A DNA stretch of 64,000 bases from assembly GCF_003226535.1 (NCBI RefSeq), contig NZ_QKOB01000001.1:1-64000 (forward strand), in the 5' to 3' direction. Position 1 is the stretch's first letter. Each line of letters begins with the position of its first letter. Positions 55,672 through 57,345 of the stretch are shown one piece after another. The DNA is from Meiothermus sp. Pnk-1 (GTDB taxonomy: Bacteria > Deinococcota > Deinococci > Deinococcales > Thermaceae). The notes under the pieces are model-generated. The model worked only from the letters and a program-made list of their open reading frames with translations, ran no database searches and had not been told where the DNA came from. A program made the translations under genes and the position numbers.

Positions 55672-57345
55672 TTAGTCCACCACCCTGAACCCCAGCGCCT
55701 CGGCCCGCTCGACGAAGAACTGGATGTTCTCGCTCTTGGTTTCCCCGCCCAGGCTTTTGCGCTCGTAGGCCCCCTCGGCGGCCAGGATCATGGTCTCGGC
55801 CAAGCAGGCCGGCACCGCGCCCTCGCCGAAGTGGAGGTCGAGGTTGCCGCTCATGGTTCCAGGGGGGCGCACCACCCCGCCGGGGATGACCCGCACGCCG
55901 GGGAGCTTCTTCACGCTCTCGTGGACGTCGGGGGGCACGCCCTCGTCGTAGATCCAGGCGCCGGGCTTGACGTGCTCGGGGAAGATCACGGCCTGGGGGT
56001 CGGAGGTGGCGCTGAAGATCAGGTCGGCTTCCTTGATGGCGCGGATGTCGGTGGTGACCACCATCTCGGGCACCTGGCCCTTGCGCTCGAGGTTCTTCCG
56101 CAGGCTCTCGGCGCTCTTCTCCAGGCGCTCCAGGTTGCGCCCCACCAGGATGAGCTTGCCCACCAGGGGGGCGATTTGGCGGGCGATGCCGAAGGCCACC
56201 ACGCCGTTGGCGCCCACCACCGCGGCGGTGGTCTGGCGCAGGTCGTGGCCCGTATGGGAAAAGTGGGCGATGATGCCGGGAATGGCGGCCTTGACGGTGC
56301 CGGCGGTATAGGCTCCGCCGTTGGTGACCTCGATTTCGGGCACGGCCTCCTGCACCCGCTTGCCCTTCTCGCCCACCACGCTCCAGAAAGCCCCCAGCCC
56401 CAGCACCGTGCAGCCGAGCTCCTTGGCCAATCGTGCGGCCTGGATGGCTTTCTGAGTGGCGAGCTCGGGGTTGGAGGTGATCTGGTGTGGCAGCAGCGGC
56501 GCTGAGATCAAGTAGCAGCGGATCTCGCGCCCGTCGGCGGTCTTGATGCCGCGCAACTCGCCGTTCTTCATGGGCCGGATCAGGGCGGTGAAGCGCTCGA
56601 GCAGCCCCTGCGAGACCCAGCCCCGGTCCACCAGGGGCTTGAACCAGCGGAAGCGCGGGGTCTGGAAGAGGTCCTCCAGCGTGAGCGGGTGGATCATGAA
56701 GGCGCACACCGCCTGTTTCTCTGAGGGCAGGGGGAGCGGTTCGCCCAGCTTGGGTTCGGTGCCCTCGAGCATGCGCCCGATGTTCTCCTTGTAGCGCCAC
56801 AGGGCCAAAAGGGCTAGCCCCAAACCTGCCAGCTTGCCCCACAGGGCGATTGGCTGCCCCAAGGCGATCAAGGCGGTGGTTAGCGGTAGCGAAAGCGCCG
56901 CCAGGGAAGCATAACCCAAAGCAGCGTACAAGAGGAGCGCCACGGCCAGGGGAATCAGGGCCAGCAGATAGGGCATCCCCACGTTGGAAAGGGCGGCCAC
57001 GATACCCAGCAGGATGCCCGCCCCGCGCCCCCGCAGCGGCGCATTTGGAGTCCAGCGGGGGAGCGGGTAGAGGTGGCCCAGGTAGGCTACAAAGGCTAGG
57101 AGCAGTCCAGCCTCGAACCCCGTGGCGGTAAAGCGGGCCGGGTAGACCGCCAAGAAGCCCTTGAGCAAATCTGCCGCAAAGGCCAGAAAAAGCGGCCAAG
57201 CCCCGAGGAGGCGGAGGGCGTTCTCGAGACCCAAATTATAGGCTGAGGCCTGCCGGGGGTCCTTTCCGCTGAGGCGGTACACCAGCCAGTACCCCAAGGG
57301 CAAGGAGCCGATCAGGTATGCCACAATCGCTAAGAAGGCGATCAC
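55672..57345 (-). CDS. PlsY-like / acyl-ACP-reductase-like fusion protein
   Basis: 557 residues. Residues 1-200 are a PlsY-type glycerol-3-phosphate acyltransferase fold with five or six membrane segments and the closing motif RYKENIGRMLEGTE. The catalytic PlsY loops are altered: the usual GSGNxGATN is SAYNLGLEN, and the Gly/Lys-rich loop is LRGRGAG. Residues 210-557 follow cyanobacterial long-chain acyl-ACP reductase: LGCTVLGLGAFWSVV, Rossmann AVVGANGVVAFGIARQI, GGVVRPPGTMSGN and PACLAETMILAAEG, where Cys514 aligns with the acyl-enzyme Cys. A fatty aldehyde-forming or lipid-modifying membrane enzyme is likely. Confidence 0.85.
   Translation of the reverse strand: MIAFLAIVAYLIGSLPLGYWLVYRLSGKDPRQASAYNLGLENALRLLGAWPLFLAFAADLLKGFLAVYPARFTATGFEAGLLLAFVAYLGHLYPLPRWTPNAPLRGRGAGILLGIVAALSNVGMPYLLALIPLAVALLLYAALGYASLAALSLPLTTALIALGQPIALWGKLAGLGLALLALWRYKENIGRMLEGTEPKLGEPLPLPSEKQAVCAFMIHPLTLEDLFQTPRFRWFKPLVDRGWVSQGLLERFTALIRPMKNGELRGIKTADGREIRCYLISAPLLPHQITSNPELATQKAIQAARLAKELGCTVLGLGAFWSVVGEKGKRVQEAVPEIEVTNGGAYTAGTVKAAIPGIIAHFSHTGHDLRQTTAAVVGANGVVAFGIARQIAPLVGKLILVGRNLERLEKSAESLRKNLERKGQVPEMVVTTDIRAIKEADLIFSATSDPQAVIFPEHVKPGAWIYDEGVPPDVHESVKKLPGVRVIPGGVVRPPGTMSGNLDLHFGEGAVPACLAETMILAAEGAYERKSLGGETKSENIQFFVERAEALGFRVVD

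Follow-up and report, generated by a model that had tools for sequence, protein, structure and literature searches.

A PlsY-type membrane domain joined to an acyl-thioester reductase in the Deinococcota: a possible source of fatty aldehyde for N-glyceroyl-alkylamine phosphoglycolipids

In the PlsY acyltransferase of A. aeolicus (TIGR00023; PDB 5XJ5-5XJ9), the glycerol-3-phosphate (G3P) is held by a phosphate clamp composed of Ser35, Arg45, Lys104, and Asn180, and its 2-OH is contacted by Ser142 and His177, while the acyl-phosphate contacts His92, which lines the phosphate hole, and Thr41, which binds the acyl-phosphate carbonyl (PMC5700162). The Thr41Ala variant has severely reduced activity (PMC5700162). 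The cyanobacterial acyl-ACP reductase (AAR; TIGR04058; PDB 6JZQ and 6JZU) forms fatty aldehyde via an acyl-enzyme at Cys294, with Tyr247 playing a role in the acyl tunnel (PMC7089970). TamH couples a reductase to a class III transaminase, and TamH and TamA jointly form the C12 amine from the C12 acid (PMC9594044); in PigE the same kind of reductase is joined to a class III transaminase and makes an amine (PMC8341465).

The window, i.e., the whole stretch of 64,000 nucleotides of Meiothermus sp. Pnk-1 that was analysed, contains a gene in which a PlsY-like and an AAR-like domain are joined. It begins 63 bases past the end of an rplT-like ORF (57759-57409) that is part of a same-strand cluster of the infC-rpmI-rplT type. 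Its features are the following:

55672..57345, minus strand: the complete fusion gene (GTG start at 57345, stop at 55674-55672, 557 aa, no internal stop)
56770..57324, minus strand: PlsY-like membrane domain, residues 8-192 (PF02660), from the Pfam, 5xj5, and Foldseek matches
57223..57225, minus strand: codon of Glu41, at the site of PlsY Thr41 (alignment; residue role from PMC5700162)
57073..57075, minus strand: codon of His91, equivalent to PlsY His92 of the acyl-phosphate phosphate hole, kept in 71/71 fusions
56755..56796, minus strand: RYKENIGRMLEGTE, residues 184-197, corresponding to PlsY motif 3, where Tyr stands in place of His177 (sequence and alignment)
55675..56709, minus strand: predicted acyl-thioester reductase domain, residues ~213-557, from the PigE and AAR matches; stand-alone relatives elsewhere start here
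56188..56214, minus strand: dinucleotide-binding loop GANGVVAFG, residues 378-386 (GATGDIG in AAR; alignment)
55804..55806, minus strand: codon of Cys514, within PACLAETM, the equivalent of the AAR acyl-enzyme nucleophile Cys294 (alignment; PMC7089970)

Only two Pfam families score above their cut-offs in the protein, namely G3P_acyltransf (PF02660, residues 8-192, 1.6e-29, 103.5 bits against a cut-off of 24.1) and a Shikimate_DH-type Rossmann fold; no class III aminotransferase domain is found above the Pfam cut-off. The PlsY half matches the sequence of 5xj5 in the PDB at 1.9e-13. The best NCBIfam match is the reductase part of PigE (residues 263-553, 1.4e-29), the cyanobacterial AAR model matches residues 267-535 at 1.8e-16, and the sequences of the AAR crystal structures 6jzu and 6jzq match at 2.4e-15. 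With an AlphaFold2 model built from 29 close relatives (mean pLDDT 81.9, pTM 0.68), the Foldseek search of the PDB returns AAR 6jzu at 6e-17 and PlsY 5xj5-5xj8 at a TM-score of ~0.8 (on the PlsY chain). These comparisons confirm that the ORF encodes a predicted PlsY-type membrane domain joined to a reductase of the AAR/PigE acyl-thioester type.

The fusion shares with PlsY the fold, the length, the His of the phosphate hole, and the overall positions of the motifs, but it scores 79.7 bits with TIGR00023, under the curated cut-off of 137.2, Thr41 is replaced by Glu, Ser35, Lys104, His177, and Ser142 are changed, and a reductase is attached. The fold, the catalytic Cys, and the position of the NAD(P) loop are those of AAR, while the identity is ~25%, the TIGR04058 score of 60.4 bits lies far below the curated cut-off of 449.7, and a membrane domain is present at the N-terminus. 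By these scores, the fusion is outside both PlsY and AAR as the curated models define them. In the known PlsY-DegV fusions (PMC5700162), PlsY is likewise followed by a C-terminal domain that handles fatty acids, but DegV binds them, whereas the partner here is a reductase.

Within the C-terminal reductase half, Cys514 falls on AAR Cys294, and an alignment of 71 full-length fusions shows its column to be near-invariant (at least 97%). Such columns amount to 28% past residue 270 and 8.5% in residues 1-200. The NAD(P) loop, GX(1-3)GX(1-2)G, reads GANGVVA in the fusion and GATGDIG in AAR, the final glycine being an Ala; like the Cys, the loop is near-invariant among the fusions. The tunnel residue Tyr247 of AAR corresponds in the alignment to Val470, which suggests that the substrate handling differs. 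The half is also similar to stand-alone PigE-like reductases (e.g., L099 and L116; ~30-40% identity over residues 213-556), which lack the PlsY domain and many of which adjoin or are fused to a protein family designated NT (see below). The PigE and TamH didomains, which take an acyl thioester through the aldehyde to the amine, have the reductase domain in common with the fusion but differ in that the fusion carries a PlsY-like domain and no transaminase. We consider it very likely, from these alignments, that the fusion is a membrane-attached NAD(P)H-dependent acyl reductase. By analogy, it probably acts as a reductase of the PigE/TamH kind in which a membrane module derived from PlsY substitutes for the transaminase.

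To characterize the PlsY half, its active-site residues were counted, in PlsY numbering, in the 71 full-length fusions and in 20 canonical PlsY sequences. The 71 fusions are mostly from Thermaceae; the 28 from outside Thermaceae (f1) and the Oceanithermus family (f4) agree at positions 35, 41, 92, and 104. All six G3P residues (Ser35, Arg45, Lys104, Asn180, His177, and Ser142) are present in 20/20 canonical sequences. Of the 71 fusions, 5 retain Ser35, 8 His177, 9 Ser142, and 12 Lys104 (Arg in 59), while Asn180 (50) and Arg45 (43, with Lys in 20) are better kept. His92, Asp59, Gly39, and Gly105 are each found in 71/71, and position 41 is Glu in 70/71 fusions versus Thr or Ser in 20/20 canonical PlsY. 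Such a pattern is that of a site altered in one consistent way, as opposed to a decayed one, and, judging from these counts, the half probably does not act as an ordinary G3P acyltransferase. The preliminary description had assigned to this ORF a PlsY fold with altered catalytic loops and an AAR-like reductase with the acyl-enzyme Cys in PACLAETM; the former is borne out by the PF02660 match, the Foldseek result, and the residue counts, and the latter by the equivalence of Cys514 and AAR Cys294.

The genome of the window also encodes a separate canonical PlsY (L002, 169.6 bits, over the TIGR00023 cut-off), so that the fusion would be dispensable for ordinary phosphatidic acid synthesis. A third PlsY-like gene of this genome (L003, G000:C3:214699-215178) is short, with motif 1 intact and motif 3 lost (His177 to Asn and Asn180 to Asp).

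The PlsY-like half would lack the normal G3P site and retain the acyl-phosphate side. It would most likely bind the acyl-phosphate made by PlsX, or the acyl chain, and feed the reductase; alternatively, it might hold the chain and the aldehyde at the membrane. It is conceivable, if doubtful, that the half functions as an acyltransferase on a new acceptor and that the two halves catalyse separate steps, e.g., one that links an amine or some other acceptor to acyl-phosphate. This alternative bears only on what the PlsY half does and is compatible with our best explanation of the fusion as a source of fatty aldehyde, given below. The four residues kept in all fusions, the altered G3P clamp, and the nearly constant Glu41 would then mark a retuned rather than a dead enzyme, but the Thr41Ala change severely lowers the activity of PlsY and the PlsY half is the less conserved one in terms of near-invariant columns. 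It is also rather unlikely that the half is a membrane anchor only and the enzyme an ordinary acyl-ACP reductase. The degenerate G3P-site positions (Ser35, Lys104, Ser142, His177, and Asn180) and the stand-alone reductases of other phyla, which manage without PlsY, agree with such a role; a mere anchor, however, would not need His92, Asp59, Gly39, Gly105, and Glu41, which are conserved in 70-71 of the 71 sequences.

The full fusion (full-length or contig-broken) is present in 107/111 Deinococcota genomes with 40-85% identity: 50/50 in Thermaceae (f1), 4/4 in f2, 4/4 in f3, 14/14 in f4, and 35/39 in f5, which is identified as Trueperaceae by Truepera radiovictrix (G108). Counting any PlsY match would give 111/111, but G072, G076, G077, and G100 have weak matches only and are outside the fusion count. 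A two-domain protein kept at this identity across the phylum is, on the sequence comparison, far beyond chance. The carriers include Meiothermus ruber (G030), Oceanithermus profundus (G011, f4), and Meiothermus silvanus (G023, of the same genus as the window), and the named loci of Thermus, Meiothermus, and Calidithermus carry orthologues. The searched set has no genome known to be Deinococcus and no Moorella; Deinobacterium, taken as a control genome, has a reductase-family match only. In Thermus parvatiensis RL (L031) and at G060:C1:1459860-1461511, the frame is broken near residue 490, possibly by sequencing error.

The full fusion is absent from all 279 genomes of other phyla (0/279). In 26 of them, the reductase half occurs without PlsY, its start coinciding with the fusion boundary. 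A group other than that of Moorella, in the phylum of G185, carries the reductase in 41 of 43 genomes.

In Thermaceae, the fusion gene is often located downstream of infC-rpmI-rplT; that of Trueperaceae is followed by prmA- and rsmE-like genes. Lipid genes were not found near the fusion in Deinococcota, the neighbours being housekeeping genes, and we have therefore rejected the neighbouring genes as a guide to its function. The reductase loci of other phyla contain NT, an undescribed family of ~310 aa with no convincing match in Pfam, NCBIfam, or the PDB:

L116:5409-6347, and in the window's own genome G000:C6:90896-91792 (L172:8004-8912): NT, family without a convincing database match

NT adjoins or is fused to the reductase in 16/26 of these loci, and in six (L103, L107, L110, L111, L112, and L117) it is an N-terminal fusion, occupying the place that PlsY has in Deinococcota. 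Among the 279 non-Deinococcota genomes, both genes are present in 21, a single one in 2 and 5, and neither in 251, with a Fisher p of 8e-25. This significance is inflated by kinship, as the genomes apparently represent about two per group, but the pairs cover about a dozen groups. Judging from this co-occurrence, the reductase and NT form a conserved gene set outside Deinococcota. Within Deinococcota, NT is found in 106/111 genomes, away from the fusion and before genes resembling efp, accB, and accC by sequence. A START-type gene is present in 6/26 reductase loci of other phyla, and in L116 and L113 the gene order is NT, aminotransferase, START, reductase.

TRANSAMINASE heads the evidence on the reductase-linked class III transaminases. 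A class III aminotransferase is present in 5/26 reductase loci, in four on the same strand within 2.2 kb and in one fused. The window's genome encodes nine class III enzymes, and one of them, AT1, is the best match of all five (33-51% identity, 214-414 bits), clearly ahead of the next best (142-300 bits). This enzyme and a second one, AT2, are encoded at the following positions:

L136:7962-9263: AT1, PigE/putrescine-type class III aminotransferase beside an rnr-like gene
L202:1396-2862: AT2, class III aminotransferase whose closest NCBIfam model is PigE

AT1 occurs in 59 genomes (48/50 Thermaceae and 11/14 of f4, none elsewhere at that threshold) and AT2 in 31 genomes, only of f2, f3, and f5. 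The two occur together in 0/111 genomes, and 21/111, including the complete fusion-bearing G099, have neither. AT1 was rejected as a phylum-wide transaminase, being restricted to two families. The pattern, as seen in the genomes, would fit the replacement of one transaminase by the other; it tracks family lines and may go back to a single evolutionary event. AT1 is a candidate partner of the fusion. No lipid operon was found around AT1, AT2, or NT, most neighbours of NT and AT1 being housekeeping genes. Two further loci, L162 and L163 (Thioclava and Methylocystis plasmids), have PigE-like reductase-transaminase fusions near genes for ACP and a PEP/pyruvate-binding protein.

Thermus and Meiothermus have as their major phospholipid a 2'-O-(diacylglycerophospho)-3'-O-(GlcNAc)-N-glyceroyl alkylamine, which is akin to a D. 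radiodurans lipid and has been described as a chemical marker for this lineage (PMC3398001, PMC3035268). Phosphoglycolipids of this kind were first reported in 1985 (Anderson and Hansen, as cited in PMC3398001). According to the literature, N-glyceroyl alkylamine lipids are proven for Thermus, M. ruber, and D. radiodurans, and matching Rf values suggest them for M. silvanus, Oceanithermus, Vulcanithermus, and Rhabdothermus. The fusion is present both where the lipid is proven (M. ruber and Thermus species) and where it is suggested by Rf (O. profundus and M. silvanus); Trueperaceae carry the fusion as well. N-Glyceroyl alkylamines are also listed for Bacillota, including Moorella, in a table of PMC13274423 with its citation. 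The late steps of the pathway have been proposed for T. thermophilus in PMC9636437, and no gene for the alkylamine was found in the passages located there or in the other literature consulted.

Our best explanation, to which we assign a probability of roughly 55%, is that the fusion supplies the fatty aldehyde for the alkylamine of the N-glyceroyl-alkylamine phosphoglycolipids. It is favoured because the wide distribution of these lipids matches that of the gene and because a fatty-acid-type alkylamine plausibly needs a fatty aldehyde, which fits the product of this enzyme family. In the mechanism that we infer, from the aldehyde formation and the PlsY-half role to the transaminase identity and the lipid product, a fatty acyl group would be loaded on Cys514 of the C-terminal domain and reduced by NAD(P)H to the fatty aldehyde. 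The aldehyde would then be converted to the alkylamine by a class III aminotransferase encoded elsewhere, a step proposed by comparison with TamH and PigE, in which such a reductase works together with a class III transaminase. Finally, the alkylamine would be amide-linked to glyceric acid. Against such a pathway speak the presence of the reductase and NT in about a dozen further groups, few of them with described lipids, the 21/111 genomes with neither AT1 nor AT2, the family-bound pattern of these two enzymes as a possible single event, the replacement of AAR Tyr247 by Val470, the housekeeping neighbours of the fusion, and the mostly housekeeping ones of NT and AT1.

We have also considered a more specific variant, which we regard as speculative, in which the PlsY-like half would be an acyl-phosphate enzyme with a retuned site. 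It could pass acyl-phosphate straight to Cys514, making the fusion a membrane fatty acyl-phosphate reductase, or, with Glu41 acting as the base, it could couple the alkylamine through an amide bond to an activated glycerate (for instance, 1,3-bisphosphoglycerate), giving a product shaped like lysophosphatidic acid. If the Glu41 variant were true, one protein would account for two steps of an unsolved lipid pathway.

The preliminary description had suggested that the fusion makes or passes on fatty aldehyde at the membrane, which our results support, or that it acts in 1,2-diol synthesis, which they do not favour. An aldehyde destined for 1,2-diols, fatty alcohols, or wax-like or other neutral lipids is improbable: the reductase product could serve any of these, and Thermus and Meiothermus possibly contain small amounts of long-chain diols (PMC3035268), but the gene is found in all five Deinococcota families, more widely than the diol reports found, the protein does not account for the extra carbon or oxidation steps that a 1,2-diol needs, and the relatives of the reductase are linked to transaminases.

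If the fusion indeed provides the fatty aldehyde from which the alkylamine lipids are made, its gene would give the first step of the pathway, with NT and one class III transaminase as candidates for others, and PlsY would have been re-used for a purpose other than phosphatidic acid synthesis. The recently reported lipids of Bacillota would then be predictable from genomes.
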